DNA of 64,000 bases. Source: Sporichthyaceae bacterium. GTDB taxonomy: Bacteria; Actinomycetota; Actinomycetes; Sporichthyales; Sporichthyaceae. The DNA is taken from contig DASXPS010000019.1 in NCBI GenBank assembly GCA_036493475.1, forward strand, positions 1 to 64,000, in the 5' to 3' direction. The position numbers and the translations under genes are program-made. The notes below the pieces were generated by a model, which was given only the letters and a program-made list of their open reading frames with translations, searched no databases and was not told the origin of the DNA. Below are positions 29,235-38,872 of the stretch, piece by piece (the stretch's first letter is position 1; every line of letters starts with the position of its first letter).

Positions 29235-32200
29235 TCAGCGGAAGTCGCGCGATCGACCGCCGGTGGCCACCTGCAGGGGCGTGAACGCCTCGGCAACCAG
29301 GCTGATCACCTCATCAGTGCGTTCCAGCCGGCCACGGACGATCAGCGCCGCACTGTCCCGGGCGATCCGGCGATGCCGGGCCCAGGCACCGGGTGAGCAG
29401 ATCACGTTGAGCATGCCGGTCTCGTCCTCGAGGTTGAGGAAGATGGTCCCGGACGCCGTCTGCGGCTGCTGACGGTGCGTGACCACCCCGGCCACGCTCA
29501 CCCGGTCCCGATTCCGCCGCTCCCCCAGCCCGGCCACCGACAGCACCCCGTCAGGCAGCTGTCCCCGCACGTGTTCCATCGGATGCCCGTCCGGGGTGAT
29601 GCCGGTGGCCCACAGGTCGGCCATGGTCTGCTCGACGACGGTCATGGCGGGCAACTGGGGCGCCCGCCCGCCGAGCACGGTGCCCGCCAACCGGTCCGGC
29701 CGGTTCTCGGCCACCGCACCGGCCGCCCACAGTGCCTCCCGCCGGGCCACACCCAGACCGTCGAAGGCGCCGGCGGTGGCCAACGCCTCGATGTGCGCCG
29801 CCCCCGCGCCGGTGCGCAACGCGAAGTCGGCCAGGTCGGCATACGGGCGACCGGCGGCGATGCGTTCGGCCAACTCGCTGCCGATGCCGCGCACCGAATC
29901 GATGCCCAGCCGCACCGCGGCCCGGCCAAGCACGGTGCCCGGCTCGGCGTCGTCGGGACCGTGCGGTTCCAGTCCGGCCGACGCCGCGGAGACGTTGACC
30001 TCCGGGCGGCGCACCTCGACGCCGTGCCGGCGGGCATCGGCGACCAGCGACTGCGGGGAGTAGAAGCCCATCGGTTGGGCGTTGAGCAGCGCGGCGCAGA
30101 ACGCCGCCGGGTAACGCAGTTTGAGCCAGGAGCTGGCGTAAACCAGCAACGCGAAGCTGATCGAGTGGCTCTCCGCGAAACCGAAGTTGGCAAACGCGGC
30201 GATCAGGTTGAAGATCTCGTCCGCGGTGGCCCCGGTAATGCCGTGGGTGCGGGCCATCCCCTCGTACAGCTCGGCGCGCAACGCGGCGATCTGTTCGGCG
30301 GAGCGTTTGGAGCCGACCGCGCGGCGCACCCGGTCTGCCTGGGTGGGCGTGCAGCCGGCCGCGTCGACGACCATCTGCATGAGCTGTTCCTGGAACATCG
30401 GCACGCCGAGGGTGCGGCGCAGGCAGTTCTCCAACGACGGGTGCGGATAGGTGATCGGCTCCTTGCCCGCACGCCGACGGATGAACGGGTGCACCGAGCC
30501 GCCCTGGATGGGGCCGGGACGGATCAGCGCGATCTCCAGCACCAGGTCGTAGAAGCAGCGCGGTTTGAGCCGGGGCAAGGTGGCCATCTGCGCGCGGGAC
30601 TCCACCTGGAACACCCCGACCGAATCGGCCCGGCACAACATGTCGTAGACCTCGGGCTCCTCCTTGGGCAGCGTCGCCAACGTCCACTCGGTGCCGTGGA
30701 AGTCCTTGACCATGTCGAAGCAGCCGTGCAACGCGGCGAGCATGCCCAGCCCGAGCAGGTCGAACTTGACCAGGTTCACCAACGGGGAGGCGCAGTCGTC
30801 CTTGTCCCACTGGATGACCGTGCGGTTCTCCATGCGCGCGTGCTCGACCGGCACCACCTCGACCACCGGCCGGTCGCAGATCACCATGCCGCCGGAGTGG
30901 ATGCCCAGATGCCGCGGGAACCGGGCCACCTGCGTGGCCAGCTCCAGCACCTCGTCGGGAATGTCGTCGTGGTTGGTCGGGGTGGCGTCGTACCTATGTG
31001 CCTCGCGGGCGAAGGCGTCCTGCGCGCCCAGGGAGTAGCCCAGCGCCTTGGCCATGTCCCGCACCGCCGAACGCGGCCGGTAGGAGATCACGTTGGCCAC
31101 CTGGGCGGCATGCCGGCGGCCGTAGCGGGTGTAAACGTGCTGGATCACTTCTTCGCGACGCTCGGACTCGATGTCAATGTCGATGTCCGGTGGCTCGCCG
31201 CGCTCCGGAGACAGGAAACGTTCGAACAGCAGGTCGTAATAGACGGCGTCCACCGCGGTGATGCCCAGCGCGTAACAGACCGCGGAGTTGGCCGCCGAGC
31301 CGCGGCCCTGGCAGAGGATGTGCTGCGCGCGGGCGAATTCGACGATCTCGTGCACGATGAGGAAGTAGCCGGGAAAGTCCAGCTGCTCGATCATCGCCAG
31401 CTCGTGGTCGATCTGCGCGTACGCCCCGGGTTGGCGTTCCGCGCCGCGTGGGCCGTAGCGCTCCGCGGCGCCGCGCTCGGTGAGCTCACGCAGCCAACTC
31501 ATCGCGGTGTGGCCCGGCGGGACCGGGAAGTCCGGCAGCCGCGGGCGGATCAGCGCCAGGTCGAACGCGCACTGCGCGCCGAACTGCGCGGCCCGGGCGA
31601 CCGCGTCGGGGTATCGGGCGAAGCGCCCCCTCATCTCCGCACCCGTATGCAGGTGCGCGGTACCGGCGGCGGGCAACCAGCCCGCCAGCTCGTCCAGGCT
31701 GCGCCCGGAGCGCACCGCGGCCAATGCGGTGGCCAGTCGACGCCGGTTCGGTGCGGCGTAGTGCACGTTGCCGGTGACCACGGTGGGCACCCGGGACCGG
31801 GCGGCCAACTCGACCAACGCGTCGATGCGTTCGGAGTCGGTGGGATGCCCGTGGTCGGTGAGCTCGACGGCGATGTTTTCCTTGCCGAACAGCGCAATCA
31901 GCCGGTCCAGCTCGCGGGCCGCGGCAGCCGCGTCACCGCCGGCGAGCGCGGCGGGCACGGCGCCCTTGCGGCACCCGGTGAGCACCAACCAGTGCCCGTC
32001 CGCGGCGGCACCGAGAGCCTCCAGATCATGCACCGGGCGGCCCTTCTCCCCGCCCGCGGCGTGCCCGTCGCTGATCGCGGTGGACAGCCGGGCGTAGCCG
32101 TCCGGGTCGCGGGCCAGCACCAACAGGTGGTTGCCCTCCGGATCGCAGATTCCGTTCTGAGGCTGCGTCAGACCGAGACTGAGCTCCGCACCGAACACCG

Positions 32201-32561
32201 TGGGCAGCCGGTAGCGGGCGGCCGCCTCGGCGAATCTGACGACCCCGTAGAAACCGTCGTGGTCGGTGATGGCCAACGCGGACAGCCCGAGCCGCACCGC
32301 TTCCTCGACCATCTCCTCGGGGTGCCCGGCGCCGTCCAGGAAGCTGAAGTTGGTGTGCGCGTGCAGTTCCGCGTACGGGACGGTGTCGGTGACCGGTTCG
32401 ATGGCGCGGGGTTTGTAGGGCGCGCGGTGGTGGCTGCCCGGCCGTTCCGGTTCCTCGCCGAAGGCGAGCTTGGGCGGTCGGTTCTCCCCCCGTGGGTTGA
32501 ACTTGCCGGACAGCCGACGTTCCAGCTCCCGCCACGGCATCGGCGGGTTCCCCCACCCCAT
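29235..32561 (-). CDS. dnaE2: Error-prone DNA polymerase III alpha subunit DnaE2
   Basis: A 1108-aa translesion polymerase, the catalytic part of the actinobacterial mutasome. It has a PHP domain (AELHAHTNFSFLDGA), polymerase palm motif PDIDIDIESERREEV, fingers, tandem HhH, and an OB fold near the C-terminus (VSVAGVVTHRQQPQTASG). Length is typical of DnaE2 and shorter than replicative DnaE1. ATG 32561 has GGGAGGTGA upstream. It is last in the imuA'-imuB-dnaE2 array and is separated from imuB by dispersed palindrome copy 2. SOS induction would come from the LexA boxes at 34256 and 35107. Confidence 0.96.
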   Translation of the reverse strand: MGWGNPPMPWRELERRLSGKFNPRGENRPPKLAFGEEPERPGSHHRAPYKPRAIEPVTDTVPYAELHAHTNFSFLDGAGHPEEMVEEAVRLGLSALAITDHDGFYGVVRFAEAAARYRLPTVFGAELSLGLTQPQNGICDPEGNHLLVLARDPDGYARLSTAISDGHAAGGEKGRPVHDLEALGAAADGHWLVLTGCRKGAVPAALAGGDAAAAARELDRLIALFGKENIAVELTDHGHPTDSERIDALVELAARSRVPTVVTGNVHYAAPNRRRLATALAAVRSGRSLDELAGWLPAAGTAHLHTGAEMRGRFARYPDAVARAAQFGAQCAFDLALIRPRLPDFPVPPGHTAMSWLRELTERGAAERYGPRGAERQPGAYAQIDHELAMIEQLDFPGYFLIVHEIVEFARAQHILCQGRGSAANSAVCYALGITAVDAVYYDLLFERFLSPERGEPPDIDIDIESERREEVIQHVYTRYGRRHAAQVANVISYRPRSAVRDMAKALGYSLGAQDAFAREAHRYDATPTNHDDIPDEVLELATQVARFPRHLGIHSGGMVICDRPVVEVVPVEHARMENRTVIQWDKDDCASPLVNLVKFDLLGLGMLAALHGCFDMVKDFHGTEWTLATLPKEEPEVYDMLCRADSVGVFQVESRAQMATLPRLKPRCFYDLVLEIALIRPGPIQGGSVHPFIRRRAGKEPITYPHPSLENCLRRTLGVPMFQEQLMQMVVDAAGCTPTQADRVRRAVGSKRSAEQIAALRAELYEGMARTHGITGATADEIFNLIAAFANFGFAESHSISFALLVYASSWLKLRYPAAFCAALLNAQPMGFYSPQSLVADARRHGVEVRRPEVNVSAASAGLEPHGPDDAEPGTVLGRAAVRLGIDSVRGIGSELAERIAAGRPYADLADFALRTGAGAAHIEALATAGAFDGLGVARREALWAAGAVAENRPDRLAGTVLGGRAPQLPAMTVVEQTMADLWATGITPDGHPMEHVRGQLPDGVLSVAGLGERRNRDRVSVAGVVTHRQQPQTASGTIFLNLEDETGMLNVICSPGAWARHRRIARDSAALIVRGRLERTDEVISLVAEAFTPLQVATGGRSRDFR

Positions 32562-32597
32562 CGCTTCACCTCCCTTCACCCCCGTTGCGTCTCACCC

Positions 32598-32651
32598 CCG
32601 TTGCGTCCGAAGAAGTGGGGGTACCCGGACACTGTTCTTCGGACGCAACGG
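32598..32651. repeat. Dispersed palindromic element, copy 2 (imuB-dnaE2)
   Basis: The best-preserved copy: perfect 17-bp arms CCGTTGCGTCCGAAGAA (32598-32614) and its complement (32635-32651), loop 20 nt, itself containing GGGTACCC. It begins directly at the imuB stop codon. A partial tandem duplicate of the left arm, CCCCGTTGCGT, lies just left of it, at about 32580-32590. It may form a hairpin that shapes the imuB-dnaE2 mRNA. Confidence 0.85.
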
Positions 32652-34241
32652 CTAGTCGTAGACGGCCTCCACCGACCAGGCGCCGTCCTCGAACACCAGC
32701 AGCCAACCGGTGCCGTCGGCGGTGGCCACCTGAAAGCGGACCCGGACCCGCGCGGTGCGCGCGTCCCACCAGCGTTCCTCGGCCGGCCACGGCCCGGCCC
32801 AGGACAGCACTGGGCGGGGCGGGTCGCGGCCGATGAGCAACCGGACGGGCGGCGCGGAGACCGCGTAGCGGGTGGTGACGGTGACCGGGTGGCCGCCGTC
32901 GTCGAGCACCCGGGCCTGCACCGGGGTGGGCGGCACCAACGCGGGGCTGGGCGCGGGCACCCGGCCGGGCCAGGGCCCGTCACCCTTCCCGTCCTCCCGC
33001 GGGTCGCCCCAGGGCACGTAGCGGACCCGGTCGGCCGGGCCGCGGCCGCCGCCGAGCACCGCGGTGAGCACGGCGGGTTGGCCGAGCATGCCCTGCACCC
33101 GGGACAGCGCACGCCCGGCCCGTTCGGCTCCCTCGGCGTCGCCACCGGCGGACCACAGGCCGAGTTGGTCGCCGGCATGCGGAATCACCTCGTCCGGGAC
33201 CAGCCGCAGCACGCTGATCCCCGACCGCGGGCGGCCGGTGGTCAGCCACCCGTCGAGCTGCCAGCGCACCCGGTCGGCGACCGCGGCCGGGCTGAGCACG
33301 CCCTCGTGCCGCCACACGCGTTCGTGCCGTTCGCCGTGCTCGGTCTCCGCCTCGATGCGCAGCCGGGTGCAGCCCAGGCCGAGCGCGGCCAGCCGTTCGT
33401 GCAGCGCGTCGGCCAGTGGGCGGGCGGCGAACGAGGCGCGCTCCACCGACTCCGCGGGCGGATCGAGGGCGGAGGTCACCACCAGGTCCGGCGGTGGGCG
33501 ACGGGCCGAGGGCGGACGTGGATCCAAACCGCGGGCCAGCCGGTGGGCCAGCGCCCCGTCGGCGCCGAACCGGGCGATGACATCGGCGGCGGGCAACGCC
33601 CCGAACTCCCCCAGCGTGCGCAGCCCCAACCGGCGCAGCAGGTCGGCCAGTTCCGGGCGCTCCAGGACGTCGAGGGGATGCGGCGCGAGGAACTGTGGGG
33701 TGACGCCGGGCGGCACCACGGTGCCCGACCGGGCAGCCAATTCGGCGGCGAAGGCGCCCTCGGCGACCCCGGCCCGGCAGCGGTCTCCGGGGCCGGCCGC
33801 GGAGGCCTCCTCGGCCAGCCTCGCCGCGGCCGGCGCGTCCCCGCCGAAGTAGCGCGCCGGACCGCGGGCGGAGACCGTGCACAGGCCGGGCCGGACGATC
33901 TGCACACCGGGAGCCAGCACCTCGACGGCGACCACCACGGGTTCGAACGCGCGCGCCTCCTCGGCCGGGTCGCGCTCCAGGGTGGCCAACGTCGGGCAGC
34001 GGTACTGCGCCTCGCGACGTCGCAGCCCGCGGCGCACCCCGACGGCCCGGGCGGCAGCGGTGCAGGACAGCACCACGCCGGTGTGAAACACCGCGGCCGG
34101 GTCGCCGGGGGGCAGGCCCGCCGCGGCGGCCGCGGCCAGCACCGGCCAGTCCGGTGACCAAACCGCGATCGTGCGCCCGGCCGGGCGCTCCTCGGCGGCG
34201 TCGCTCGGGGGGGCCGAGCGAACCGTCGAGGAGGGGGCCAT
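32652..34241 (-). CDS. imuB: ImuB, catalytically dead Y-family polymerase homologue
   Basis: A 529-aa mutasome scaffold with Y-family polymerase fold. The N-terminal catalytic Asp motif is replaced by AVWSPDWPV (about residues 26-34), the ImuB hallmark, so it should not polymerise. A beta-clamp-binding motif, QLGLW, is at 359-363, and the C-terminus ends in a strand-rich region that in mycobacteria contacts ImuA' and DnaE2. I chose ATG 34241: CACAGT lies 7 bases upstream and TTGACG a further 17 bases, giving a leaderless SOS promoter with the LexA box in its spacer. GTG 34250 is an alternative. Confidence 0.92.
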   Translation of the reverse strand: MAPSSTVRSAPPSDAAEERPAGRTIAVWSPDWPVLAAAAAAGLPPGDPAAVFHTGVVLSCTAAARAVGVRRGLRRREAQYRCPTLATLERDPAEEARAFEPVVVAVEVLAPGVQIVRPGLCTVSARGPARYFGGDAPAAARLAEEASAAGPGDRCRAGVAEGAFAAELAARSGTVVPPGVTPQFLAPHPLDVLERPELADLLRRLGLRTLGEFGALPAADVIARFGADGALAHRLARGLDPRPPSARRPPPDLVVTSALDPPAESVERASFAARPLADALHERLAALGLGCTRLRIEAETEHGERHERVWRHEGVLSPAAVADRVRWQLDGWLTTGRPRSGISVLRLVPDEVIPHAGDQLGLWSAGGDAEGAERAGRALSRVQGMLGQPAVLTAVLGGGRGPADRVRYVPWGDPREDGKGDGPWPGRVPAPSPALVPPTPVQARVLDDGGHPVTVTTRYAVSAPPVRLLIGRDPPRPVLSWAGPWPAEERWWDARTARVRVRFQVATADGTGWLLVFEDGAWSVEAVYD

Positions 34242-34282
34242 GTCGGCCACTGTGCTCGAACAATTGTTCGAACGTCAATACA
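34242..34282 (-). promoter_or_regulatory. SOS promoter of imuB with perfect LexA box
   Basis: TCGAACAATTGTTCGA at 34256-34271 is a perfect actinobacterial LexA box (TCGAAC-N4-GTTCGA). On the minus strand TTGACG stands immediately upstream and CACAGT downstream, 17 bases apart, so LexA would occupy the -35/-10 spacer. The ATG of imuB is 7 bases after CACAGT. Confidence 0.85.
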
Positions 34283-34305
34283 GATTGGCGTGTCGTGGAG
34301 GGCCT

Positions 34306-35097
34306 TTACTCAGCCCGTCGCCGCCCTACCCACCCCCTTACGTCCGAAGAACCGCGCGCTATAGCGACCGTTCCTTCGGCCGCAAGCGAGGGGGGCCCGA
34401 CGTCGGACAGGTGCAGGTGCACGCTGCGTTCCGCACCGGGCACGCCGCGGCCGCGCGCGGACACCCGCAACCGCCGGGAGCGCAGCCGACCGTGCCCCGC
34501 GCCCAGGCCATCCCAGGCCAGCTCGTCGCAGGACAGCCGCAGGTCCGCCCCCGGCCAGGGGCCCAGCGAGACCAGCACGCTGCCGTGGTGCCGGGCCCGA
34601 CCGGCCAGCGCCCGGGCGTCACCGGGGGTGAAGCCCTCCGGTGGGCGCACGGCGACCAGGTCGAAACCGTCGAACAACGCCCCCACCACGCGGGACCAGG
34701 CCCGGCCGGGCGCGGGGATCAACGCCAGTCGGGCCAGCTCCACCCCCGTCTCCGCCGCCGCCGCCAATCCGACGCCCGGCGCCCCGACCAGCGCGCACCA
34801 GGAGCCCGTCGCCGAGGCCTCGGCGAGCAGCAGCAGCGCGAGCGTGCTCCCCCCGGCCGCCACCCGCTCGTGGTAGCCCGCGCCGTCGACGTCCCCGTCC
34901 CGCCGGGAGTGCCCGAGCGAGACCGGCCCGGTCAGCCCGACCTCGACCGTGCTCCCCTTGCGCAACCCGCCACCCATCAGCAACGGCCGCAACGCCGCCA
35001 CCACCGGCAACACGGGCGCCACCGGCGCGACCGCAGACGCCCGCCGCACGGCACCGTCCGGCAGCCGGGCAAGAAGTTCGGCGACGTCGGCGGGCAC
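34306..35097 (-). CDS. imuA': ImuA' (RecA-like mutasome accessory protein)
   Basis: A 263-aa protein with a degenerate RecA/ImuA fold. LLMGGGLRKGSTVEVGLTG and STLALLLLAEASATGSWCALVGAPGVGLAAAAE match the ImuA' layout; the Walker A is eroded. In mycobacteria ImuA' is required with ImuB for DnaE2-dependent mutagenesis. The final 20 or so codons run through dispersed palindrome copy 3, so the C-terminal tail (ARGSSDVRGWVGRRRAE) is probably repeat-encoded. The start is GTG 35097, close to a LexA box. No strong Shine-Dalgarno is seen. Confidence 0.88.
   Translation of the reverse strand: MPADVAELLARLPDGAVRRASAVAPVAPVLPVVAALRPLLMGGGLRKGSTVEVGLTGPVSLGHSRRDGDVDGAGYHERVAAGGSTLALLLLAEASATGSWCALVGAPGVGLAAAAETGVELARLALIPAPGRAWSRVVGALFDGFDLVAVRPPEGFTPGDARALAGRARHHGSVLVSLGPWPGADLRLSCDELAWDGLGAGHGRLRSRRLRVSARGRGVPGAERSVHLHLSDVGPPSLAAEGTVAIARGSSDVRGWVGRRRAE
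34334..34386. repeat. Dispersed palindromic element, copy 3 (3' end of imuA')
   Basis: A degenerate copy: left arm TTACGTCCGAAGAA (34338-34351), right arm TTCCTTCGGCCGCAA (34371-34385). The loop contains a perfect CGCTATAGCG palindrome. It lies inside the 3' end of imuA', implying the repeat inserted there and supplied a new stop. Confidence 0.65.
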
Positions 35098-35106
35098 ACC
35101 CCATCA

Positions 35107-35132
35107 TCGAACACACGTTCGGATGATCGCAA
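35107..35132 (-). promoter_or_regulatory. SOS promoter of imuA' with LexA box
   Basis: TCGAACACACGTTCGG at 35107-35122 matches the LexA consensus in 11 of 12 fixed positions. On the minus strand TTGCGA (35127-35132) is a plausible -35, and GATGAT a -10, placing the box in the spacer, as at imuB. GTG of imuA' follows 5 bases after GATGAT. Confidence 0.8.
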
Positions 35133-35143
35133 TGCCCCGATCG

Positions 35144-35223
35144 CTTGCGCATGTCATGCGCCAATGGGTCTTGTCATCCGTCTGGACGCCTGACAAGACC
35201 GTTCTGCCCATGACATGCGCAAG
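35144..35223. repeat. 80-bp concentric three-tier palindrome
   Basis: Three nested perfect inverted repeats share one centre (35183.5): outer arms CTTGCGCATGTCATG (35144-35158/35209-35223), middle arms GGTCTTGTCA (35167-35176/35191-35200), inner CGTC/GACG (35179-35182/35185-35188). The tiers are separated by matched 8- and 2-nt non-pairing gaps. Each outer arm is itself palindromic around T (GCGCATG-T-CATGCGC). It lies between the LexA box of imuA' and helR, in non-coding DNA. Confidence 0.85.
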
Positions 35224-35245: not shown

Positions 35246-35270
35246 AAAAAAGGGGCGGAGCCGCAGCTCC
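35246..35270 (-). terminator. Possible intrinsic terminator on minus strand
   Basis: Read on the minus strand, GGAGC-TGCG-GCTCC (35257-35270) is followed by GCCCC and six T (35246-35251). This has the stem-plus-U-tract form and would shield the imuA' promoter from leftward transcription. It could also be a plus-strand leader hairpin of helR. Confidence 0.45.
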
Positions 35271-35299
35271 TCCCTCACTTTCAAGGTATAGCCGAACCG

Positions 35300-35318
35300 G
35301 GGGCTTGCGGCAAGGCCC
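35300..35318 (+). promoter_or_regulatory. Rifamycin-associated element (RAE) upstream of helR
   Basis: GGGGCTTGCGGCAAGGCCC matches, base for base, the 19-bp RAE reported upstream of rifamycin-inactivating and helR genes in actinomycetes. It extends to a 27-bp imperfect inverted repeat (35296-35322). It lies 31 bp before the helR ATG, just downstream of a -10-like TATAGC at 35287. Confidence 0.9.
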
Positions 35319-35349
35319 CGGTCGGGCCGCACAATCGCGGAGCTGAGCC

Positions 35350-37527
35350 ATGAACCGGGGGGACGTGGACAACCTGACCAGCAGCGCATTCGAGCTTCCC
35401 GAACACCTGTCCGCCAAAGCGGATCCGACGCTGATCGGTGACGACGAACGGCACTTCGCGGCGATCGGCGCCGCGCTCGCGGAGTCCATCGCCGACCTCT
35501 CGCAGCGCCTGGCCGACCAGCTGCGGGCGCCCGGCGCTCGGGGCCAGGCGGTGATGGAGCGGGACCTGGAGGTGCACCGGCTGACCTCCCGGCTGAACGC
35601 GCTGCGCCGCTACGGCCTGGACCTGTGCCTGGGCCGGATGGTGCCCGCCGACGGCTCCGCGCCCGTCTACATCGGCCGGCTCGGACTCACCGACCCCACC
35701 GGGGACCGACTGCTCGTCGACTGGCGCTCCCCGGCCGCCGAGCCGTTCTTCGGCGCCACCCACGCCACCCCGATGGGCCTGGCCAGCCGGCGCCGCTACC
35801 GCTGGACCAAGGGCAGGATCAGTGACTACTGGGACGAGGTCTTCACTCCCGACGGGCTGGACGGACACGCCGCGCTGGACGACCAGTCCGCGTTCATCGC
35901 CAGCCTGGGCAGCACCCGCAGCGACCGGATGCGTGACGTCCTGGCCACCATCGCCGCCGACCAGGACGCCATCATCCGGGCGAGCGCCAAGGGCGCGCTG
36001 ATCGTGGACGGGGGTCCCGGCACCGGCAAGACCGTGGTCGCGCTGCACCGCGCCGCGTACCTGCTGCACGCCGACCCGCGCCTGCAACAGCAGCGCCGCG
36101 GCGGGGTGCTGGTGGTCGGCCCGAGCCGGCCGTACCTGACCTACGTCGCCGACGTGCTGCCCAGCCTCGGCGAGGAGGGCGTGCGCACCTGCACGCTGCG
36201 CGACCTGGTGCCCGAGGGCGCCACGGCCCCGATCGAGGACGATCCCGCGGTCGCGCGGCTGAAGGCCGACCTGGACCCGCCGGCGGTGCTCGAGGCAGCG
36301 GTGGCGATGTACGAGGAGCCGCCCACCAAGGCCATGGCCATCGACACCCAGTGGGCCGAGGTCCAGCTCACCGTCGGTGACTGGGCGGAGGCGTTCGGGG
36401 CCGCCGAGTCCGGCATCGCGCACAACGACGCCCGCGAGGTCATCTGGGCCGAACTCCTCCGGCTCCTCATCGAGAAACATGACGCCGAGGTGCCGGCGAA
36501 CCAGGTACGTCGGGTGCTCAACGAGCACAGCGACCTGCGCGAGGCGTTCAACCGAGCCTGGCCACTGCTCGAACCGCCCGACATCGTCGGCGACCTGTGG
36601 TCCGTGCCCGCCTACCTGCACAAGTGCGCGCCGCACCTGGCGGTTGACGACGTGCGCCGACTGCAGCGCCCCGACGCGGCGGCCTGGACGGTGTCCGACC
36701 TGCCGCTACTGGACGCCGCCCGGCAGCGGATCGGCGACCCCGCGATGGCGCAGACCAAACGGCGGCGCACCGCGCAGGCCGCGGCCGCCGCCGAGGAGAT
36801 GCAGCGGGTCGTGGAGACCATCATCGAGGCCGACCACGACGGCGAGGCCGCGGTGACCATGCTGCGCGGCGAGGACCTGGTGGCCGCGCTGGCCGACGAG
36901 TCCGTACTGTCCGTGCTCATCGTGGACGCGCTGGCCGGCCCGTTCGCGCACATCGTGGTTGACGAGGCGCAGGAACTGACCGACGCGGAGTGGCAGATGC
37001 TGCTCTCCCGCTGCCCGTCGCGCAGCTTCACCGTGGTCGGCGACCGCGCCCAGGCCCGCCACGGGTTCACCGAGTCCTGGCACGAGCGGCTCAAGCGGGT
37101 CGGCTTCGACCACCTGAACCTGGCCACGCTGAGCATCAACTACCGCACCCCGGCGGAAATCATGGCCGAGGCCGAGCCGGTCATCCGCGCGGTGCTCCCG
37201 GATGCCAACGTGCCGACGTCGATCCGCAGCAGCGGCATCCCCGTCCGACACGGATCGGTGGCCGAACTGCCGTCGATTCTCGACGCGTGGCTGGCGGACA
37301 ACATCGAGGGAATCGCTTGTGTCATAGGCGATCCGCGCGTCCAGCCCACCCGCCGCATCCGCTCGCTGACCCCGGAGCTGGCCAAGGGTCTGGAGTTCGA
37401 CCTGGTCGTGCTCATCGACCCGGAATTGTTCGGCACCGGCATCGAGGGCGCGGTGGACCGCTACGTCGCGCTGACCCGCGCGACCCGGGAACTCGTCATT
37501 CTCCGTACGCCGGACCCGTCCGACTGA
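35350..37527 (+). CDS. helR: HelR/HelD-type RNA polymerase-rescue ATPase
   Basis: A 725-aa superfamily-1 helicase-like protein. An N-terminal coiled-coil arm (about 33-92) precedes a split motor: Walker A GGPGTGKT at 221-228, Walker B HIVVDEAQELTD near 534-545, motif III VVGDRAQARHGF, and a C-terminal motif V/VI region (DRYVALTRATREL). HelD proteins push arms into RNA polymerase channels and recycle stalled enzyme; Streptomyces HelR displaces bound rifamycin. The RAE upstream supports the HelR subtype. ATG 35350 has GGAG 8 nt upstream. The AhpD-like gene follows after 61 bp and may be co-transcribed. Confidence 0.92.
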   Translation: MNRGDVDNLTSSAFELPEHLSAKADPTLIGDDERHFAAIGAALAESIADLSQRLADQLRAPGARGQAVMERDLEVHRLTSRLNALRRYGLDLCLGRMVPADGSAPVYIGRLGLTDPTGDRLLVDWRSPAAEPFFGATHATPMGLASRRRYRWTKGRISDYWDEVFTPDGLDGHAALDDQSAFIASLGSTRSDRMRDVLATIAADQDAIIRASAKGALIVDGGPGTGKTVVALHRAAYLLHADPRLQQQRRGGVLVVGPSRPYLTYVADVLPSLGEEGVRTCTLRDLVPEGATAPIEDDPAVARLKADLDPPAVLEAAVAMYEEPPTKAMAIDTQWAEVQLTVGDWAEAFGAAESGIAHNDAREVIWAELLRLLIEKHDAEVPANQVRRVLNEHSDLREAFNRAWPLLEPPDIVGDLWSVPAYLHKCAPHLAVDDVRRLQRPDAAAWTVSDLPLLDAARQRIGDPAMAQTKRRRTAQAAAAAEEMQRVVETIIEADHDGEAAVTMLRGEDLVAALADESVLSVLIVDALAGPFAHIVVDEAQELTDAEWQMLLSRCPSRSFTVVGDRAQARHGFTESWHERLKRVGFDHLNLATLSINYRTPAEIMAEAEPVIRAVLPDANVPTSIRSSGIPVRHGSVAELPSILDAWLADNIEGIACVIGDPRVQPTRRIRSLTPELAKGLEFDLVVLIDPELFGTGIEGAVDRYVALTRATRELVILRTPDPSD

Positions 37528-37588: not shown

Positions 37589-38872
37589 ATGACTGCGCCA
37601 GACGCGCACGAATCCACGGCGCTGACGCCGCTGCTACGGGACTCCATGGTCGAGTGGGACGTGCTTGCGCAGCGCTATTCCGGGTTGCTGCGACTGGTCG
37701 ACACGTTGATCGGAGTGGTGCCCAACTGCGACCGGTATCTGGAGATCTGGCCGCCCGCATTCCGGACGTACAACATCATGGTTCCGAACCTGTTGAATCT
37801 CCCCGTCCCGGTGTTCGGCGTCGGCGGCCCACCCGCTGCAGTTGTCGGCCTCGCCATGTACGTATCGAGTCGCACCGCCGGTTGCGCCTACTGTTCGGCG
37901 CACTCCTGTTCGTTCGCCCTTCGCCGCGGCGCAACACCGGCGAAGGTCGCGGCTGCGCTTGTCCCGGAGCAGAGTTCGTTCTCCCGGGGAGAGCTGGCGA
38001 CCGTCGCGGTGGCCCGATCGCTGGGATCCATGCCCTGCGAACTGGCCACGGCCGAGCGCGACGAGCTGGTCGCGGTCTACGGCGAGCGGAACGCCGAATG
38101 GATCGCGCTGGCCGCGGTCATGATGGGGTTTCTGAACAAGTTCATGGACGCCATCGGCGTCGAGCTCGAGCAGCCGACAGCAGCCGAAGTGGCGGGCACC
38201 ATGGGAGCTGACTGGTCGGCGGGCAAAGCCGGCGTCGGCCTCGACCCGGGTTCACCCGCCAAGCCCGCGCCGCCGGCCGACGGGCTGCGCACCAAGCTGA
38301 GTGTGTTGCCGCTGCTTCCGGCCGCGATCCGTTTTGACCGTCAGGCCCAGCAGGGCACACCGAAACGGTGGCCGGAAGTGGGCCACTATTTGGCCGAGCG
38401 CACCGGTCACAACTTCCCGGTGCTGGCGAAGCTGCACTCGTCCCGTGCCCGTCGCAGCATCGCGTCCATGCTGCGGGAGAACCTCGATCCGGAATCCTCG
38501 GTCATCGGCATCGAGCAGAAGGTGACGGCGGGCGCCGTCTTCGCGACGGTCGTCGAGAACGGGCGACTGCTCGACGACATCCGGGCCCTGGCGCGGCACA
38601 CCGGCGTCGAGGACGCCTGCTTGCAGGCGGCAGTGGATTTCGCCGGGGGTACCCAGTCGGCGGCCCTGCCGGACGACCCGTCGACGTCAGCGATGCTCAC
38701 GTTGGCGCGGGCCGCCGCCTACAGCCCTGCCCGCATCGATGCCTCGACCCTGGCCGCATGCCAGGCTGCCTGCCTGCCGGCGCCCGCGGTCGTCGAGCTG
38801 ATCACCTGGCTCTCGGTCATGCAGATGTTGCACCGGTTGACCTGCTACCTCACGACCGCGGGATCAGCGTGA
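37589..38872 (+). CDS. AhpD-like (carboxymuconolactone decarboxylase fold) protein
   Basis: A 427-aa helical protein. The N-terminal half has the alkylhydroperoxidase D motif in SRTAGCAYCSAHSCSFALRRG (CxxC then His), followed by the family's GATPAKVAAAL helix. The C-terminal half looks like a second, diverged AhpD-like domain without the CxxC pair. At 427 residues it is more than twice the usual AhpD length. Peroxidase or redox-relay activity is inferred from the CxxC. It follows helR by 61 bp, so it may be co-induced. Its last 23 bases overlap the convergent VOC gene. Confidence 0.82.
   Translation: MTAPDAHESTALTPLLRDSMVEWDVLAQRYSGLLRLVDTLIGVVPNCDRYLEIWPPAFRTYNIMVPNLLNLPVPVFGVGGPPAAVVGLAMYVSSRTAGCAYCSAHSCSFALRRGATPAKVAAALVPEQSSFSRGELATVAVARSLGSMPCELATAERDELVAVYGERNAEWIALAAVMMGFLNKFMDAIGVELEQPTAAEVAGTMGADWSAGKAGVGLDPGSPAKPAPPADGLRTKLSVLPLLPAAIRFDRQAQQGTPKRWPEVGHYLAERTGHNFPVLAKLHSSRARRSIASMLRENLDPESSVIGIEQKVTAGAVFATVVENGRLLDDIRALARHTGVEDACLQAAVDFAGGTQSAALPDDPSTSAMLTLARAAAYSPARIDASTLAACQAACLPAPAVVELITWLSVMQMLHRLTCYLTTAGSA

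Follow-up and report, generated by a model that had tools for sequence, protein, structure and literature searches.

The rifamycin-associated element (RAE) has, in aligned sequences, the look of a -35 region at which two divergent promoters overlap, and of these the antisense one appears to carry the better -10. This wider promoter architecture, absent from the first-pass annotation, is the more interesting part of the locus described here; the RAE-helR pair itself is an ordinary, routine example of a known pairing. In actinobacteria at large, mycobacteria among them, RAEs precede genes for rifamycin resistance, and papers of 2022 and 2026 left unexplained how the drug is sensed. If the element does contain a strictly conserved antisense promoter, as the alignments suggest, this question comes down to a handful of reporter mutants whose expected outcomes are opposed, and if polymerase proved to be the sensor, rifampicin sensing in actinobacteria and in Bacillus would be unified.

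An exact RAE precedes a gene of the HelR family

The window analysed (the whole stretch of 64,000 nucleotides from a Sporichthyaceae bacterium, contig DASXPS010000019.1) contains the RAE palindrome GGGGCTTGCGGCAAGGCCC as an exact match at 35300-35318, with its dyad centre at 35309 and no strand of its own; when up to 3 mismatches are tolerated, chance alone would produce 0.08 matches in the window. The element was reportedly defined in a 2014 paper. A search of the 4.27 Mb assembly for all RAEs identified the window site as the only exact copy, the second-best site (C25) showing 2 mismatches against a relaxed pattern whose centre was left unconstrained. Identity with the published RAE, claimed in the first-pass annotation, was borne out by comparison with the M. 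smegmatis arr promoter oligos, which contain the same core (PMC7882622), and with the 19-bp palindrome as described in PMC10719064. This core also recurs among the RAEs of a Mycobacterium-like genus. The M. smegmatis arr promoter, used as a search pattern for that genome, gave 0/397. The element ends at 35318, leaving the previously noted gap of 31 bp to the ATG at 35350, and the window thereby shows the sequence arrangement that marks the RAE regulon, a 19-bp palindrome upstream of a rifamycin-resistance gene.

The gene behind the element (35350-37527, plus strand) encodes 725 aa with a Walker A motif, GGPGTGKT, at residues 221-228 and the further motifs DWR at 124 and DEAQ at 538, in agreement with the HelD/HelR-type ATPase first proposed. 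The coiled-coil arm that had also been proposed is probably present: two long N-terminal helices span residues 26-59 and 66-94 in an AlphaFold model of low confidence (mean pLDDT 56), which we set aside as evidence, and better support comes from the alignment of residues 35-718 with the solved M. smegmatis HelD (6yxu/6yys, E 5e-102). Fold and ATPase are common to HelR and HelD, and the protein might be a general polymerase-recycling HelD with no role against rifamycin and a merely coincidental RAE; one of the acids at the tip of its PCh loop is indeed replaced, H496 aligning with E484 of M. smegmatis HelD. We regard this as very improbable. The PCh loop is present and its second tip acid is retained (D497, aligned with D485; the tip is D-D in most relatives), the NCBIfam model NF041254 for HelR scores 1205 bits over residues 14-719, well above its cutoff of 750, and the HelD_MYCSM model reaches 400 bits, under its cutoff of 1051. 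In a phylogeny, where the deep branching order is not fixed and the 100/100 support applies to the clade in question, the protein falls in an 18-row clade with named HelRs, apart from other HelD paralogs. Its clade-mates, HelRs of Streptomyces, Nonomuraea, Actinomadura and others, nearly all have an RAE upstream, as do 78/80 of the closest relatives. On the NCBIfam model, the tree and PDB homology, we annotate the gene as helR, encoding an RNA polymerase recycling motor ATPase HelR (class II HelD).

Rifampicin inducibility and resistance have been shown for RAE-helR pairs elsewhere (PMC10719064, PMC8655204), and HelR is known to insert its PCh loop into polymerase and to displace rifamycin (PMC10719064); by homology, the HelR of the window would act likewise on polymerase-bound rifamycin. 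SVEN_6029 of S. venezuelae and MAB_3189c of M. abscessus resemble the window in having a HelR-family protein with an RAE just upstream; function was measured in those systems and is predicted from sequence in the window. The first interpretation, a HelR behind an RAE, is thus supported, with inducibility and drug displacement standing as its predictions. The genome contains one HelD-family gene and one RAE, Arr was not found in it and neither Rox nor Rph scored above curated cutoffs, which leaves HelR as the sole resistance gene found in association with an RAE. Of the strain's rpoB, examined for its rifamycin-binding region, only an N-terminal fragment at a contig end was found.

RAEs lie at the centre of a conserved two-sided layout

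About 200 RAE elements were compared. The first of them came from three sources: the regions upstream of helR in 78 of its 80 closest relatives, a phylum-wide set of 247 genomes, and a Mycobacterium-like genus. Whether before helR, arr, rox, rph or rgt, and both within and beyond the class, the RAE forms the centre of a rigid layout of ~60 bp. Across 134 sites, each side of the dyad centre has an NAnnnT hexamer at a distance of exactly 21 nt, and no other offset between 10 and 59 gives a comparable signal. This distance of 21 nt corresponds to a 19-bp spacer when counted from the TTGCnG inside the palindrome. The two sides differ in kind, the gene side carrying [C/G]AnnnT and the opposite strand TAnnnT, a hexamer whose background rate is 0.05-0.1% per position.

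In the window, the sense -35-like hexamer TTGCGG (35305-35310, plus strand), whose TTG is invariant in the alignments, is separated by 19 bp from CACAAT (35330-35335, plus strand), the candidate sense -10, and [CG]AnnnT occupies the same offset in nearly all RAE sites; transcription of helR is accordingly predicted to start at about 35341-35343 on the plus strand. The antisense -35-like hexamer TTGCCG (35308-35313, minus strand) overlaps the sense one and is separated by another 19-bp spacer from TACCTT (35283-35288, minus strand), the candidate antisense -10, a position at which TAnnnT is found in 78/79 helR sites and in nearly all others.

Site orientation was set by resistance-gene homology or motif, independently of the hexamers. 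In a gene-oriented first set of 50 sites (Rox, HelR, Rgt, Rph, Arr), [CG]AnnnT was found on the gene side in 49/50 and TAnnnT on the opposite strand in 47/50, with 0 reversed. A second set, from 296 genomes of the class, was gathered after the rule had been stated, and its 34 sites classified by gene motif showed the gene-side hexamer in 32/34 and the antisense hexamer in 34/34, again with 0 reversed. Another 32 sites of this set were unclassified; of the 31 that were readable, 30 combined the two kinds of hexamer, one on either side, and their gene-side frames are mostly HelR, although the side was here picked by the hexamer and the result is hence a consistency check only. Over all 84 classified sites, the antisense TAnnnT keeps its T in 83, its A in 82 and its final T in 81, and the sense hexamer keeps its A in 83 and its T in 83. 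RAE sites share descent and these counts are not independent events; a stronger argument for the layout is that it recurs in front of five gene families and outside a single class.

Two other promoter assignments were rejected. TATAGC, upstream of the RAE, was considered as a sense -10; it ends in C in 99% of helR sites, and its TATA is not retained before mycobacterial arr, the minus-strand TAnnnT being what persists everywhere. A 17-bp antisense spacing (TATAnn) was discarded on the same ground, TAnnnT being the conserved form.

Some sites depart from the common pattern. Both hexamers are missing from two RAE-like sites (L109, L112) that lie before no recognised rifamycin gene, and two RAE sites before glycosyltransferase-like (Rgt) genes (L221, L226) have TAnnnT on both sides. 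HelR is also present in four other genomes of the family, and the best RAE-like site upstream of these helR genes has 1 mismatch in one of them and 2 to 5 in the rest. In two genomes of the same family, at L260 (about 1401) and L262 (about 1400), the right CCC arm of the RAE before helR has been lost, although its left half and the antisense hexamer persist, which makes them natural test cases for which half of the element is required.

The predicted antisense start and its terminator-like hairpin

Antisense transcription is predicted to start at a G at 35276 on the minus strand, a position derived from the distance of 7 nt from the -10 and from a conserved plus-strand CC. This +1 G (a C on the plus strand) is kept in 81/84 classified sites, and a GG start 7 nt beyond the antisense -10 is conserved in most relatives, the window having GA. 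From the antisense +1 the window contains an intrinsic-terminator-like hairpin followed by six U, GAGGGAGGAGCUGCGGCUCCGCCCCUUUUUU (35246-35276, minus strand), with a folding energy of -16.9 kcal/mol and a z of -2.55. Near the predicted antisense start, a terminator-like hairpin with a U-run occurs in 55/79 helR sites, compared with 26% of shuffles, and the same structure is found on the plus strand in 7/79 helR sites. The hairpin is supported by compensatory base pairs, its first base not being sharp, as shifts of 1-2 nt pair about equally well. Mycobacterial sites are mostly devoid of a terminator (3/30). In the window, this terminator would block antisense transcription from entering the divergent imuA' gene. 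A hit to Rfam SorY on the antisense strand, at 21 bits against a gathering score of 111, was judged to be chance.

How rifamycin may be sensed

The published RAE, according to the excerpts available, is a 19-bp palindrome overlapping the sense -35, and a symmetric antisense promoter is not mentioned in those excerpts. We did not find the two-promoter reading in the literature searched, a collection that lacked Spanogiannopoulos 2014, Hurst-Hess 2022 and Surette 2022, so a prior description is possible.

Our preferred account, to which we give just short of an even chance, is that helR is a rifamycin-inducible target-protection gene whose RAE serves as the shared -35 of back-to-back sigma-A-type promoters, with the antisense RNA polymerase as drug sensor. 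Both promoters would have a 19-bp spacer, the gene-side -10 (CACAAT) being the weaker, and the antisense promoter, with its better -10 (TACCTT; TAnnnT generally) and its G start, would lead straight into the terminator and yield an RNA of only ~30 nt. RNA polymerase cycling at this promoter would be the sensor: rifamycin would arrest it and thereby permit the sense promoter to fire or, alternatively, the arrested polymerase would become a platform on the DNA and help another polymerase, one free of drug, to fire the sense promoter. Once helR was transcribed, the PCh loop of HelR would enter the main channel of polymerase and displace the drug. Pure promoter occlusion was rejected as the inducer, since it gave a fold change <1 in 200,000 random parameter sets. 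Plain competition cannot raise sense output, so induction needs either a permissive or assisting arrested polymerase or a separate regulator.

Such a regulator could be an unknown dimeric transcription factor that binds the RAE and answers to rifamycin, the flanking -10s then belonging to its two promoters. We consider it a serious contender, with clearly less than an even chance. Published work has so far assumed such a factor (PMC10719064, PMC12802891), and the RAE genes have been said not to be of the B. subtilis dual-promoter type, with an unknown factor that may bind the RAE (PMC12802891). The failure of simple polymerase occlusion to yield induction also speaks for it, as do the outer GGG/CCC and the CTTG/CAAG, invariant across gene families, though the search pattern fixed these bases; the outer GGG/CCC, in addition, lie outside the -35 hexamers, and their invariance is more in keeping with a dimeric regulator than with recognition by sigma alone. 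However, no such factor is named in the literature examined, and the finding of single RAEs in some genomes, including this one, and of the element before five unrelated gene families within and beyond the class suits a universal factor. Nor does a dimeric regulator provide a reason for keeping a better -10, a conserved start and a frequent terminator on the antisense side. Polymerase as the sensor is slightly favoured by the single RAEs kept in genomes like this one and by the presence of the element before unrelated genes phylum-wide. The more specific claim that the RAE needs no dedicated regulator, the factor responding to rifamycin being RNA polymerase itself, which once arrested at the stronger antisense promoter would act as a signal on the DNA and switch on the divergent sense promoter, and that the element would work wherever it is moved within the phylum, is possible but in our view rather doubtful.

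A precedent for sensing by paired promoters exists in B. subtilis, where helD and pps sense rifampicin via sense and antisense promoters, the antisense one having a 19-bp spacer and an early intrinsic terminator, and where a deletion that forced the promoters into steric conflict abolished induction (PMC12802891). The antisense partner, the 19-bp spacer and the early terminator have predicted counterparts in the window, and a HelD-family gene lies downstream in both. However, the promoters of the B. subtilis alarm converge without overlapping (39 bp between starts) and have no RAE, whereas those predicted at the window's RAE are divergent and have a common -35 region, a geometry unlike the convergent, non-overlapping one of B. 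subtilis. The pairing of a stronger antisense with a weaker sense promoter is matched in the window at the sequence level only (TAnnnT versus CAnnnT).

Interference of the B. subtilis kind, in which a farther-upstream sense promoter would collide with the RAE antisense promoter until rifamycin arrest freed the sense polymerase, is unlikely. The antisense promoter with its 19-bp spacer does parallel Panti-helD, and a sense start of M. smegmatis helD has been reported about 20 bp upstream of the RAE (PMC10719064), a start for which the two-promoter layout does not account. Yet this start would nearly coincide with the antisense start, and a plus-strand TAnnnT upstream of the RAE is not conserved in the helR, phylum-wide or mycobacterial sets.

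Neighbouring features

Downstream of helR, a 427-aa frame (37589-38872) shows weak similarity to alkylhydroperoxidase-type enzymes, with no Pfam match at the threshold used. Upstream, between the LexA box of imuA' and the antisense terminator, lies a large inverted repeat (35144-35223) with 39-nt arms that are 82% complementary and 2 nt apart; it was not found in the loci examined from other genomes. Divergent from helR is an SOS mutasome (29235-35097, minus strand) composed of imuA' (NF058630), imuB and dnaE2, with LexA-like boxes TCGAACnnnnGTTCG at 35107 and 34256. The gene dnaE2 also stands beside helR or helD in three further loci (L052, L138 and L164), and genes for a stress polymerase and for polymerase rescue may thus be neighbours more often than by chance.
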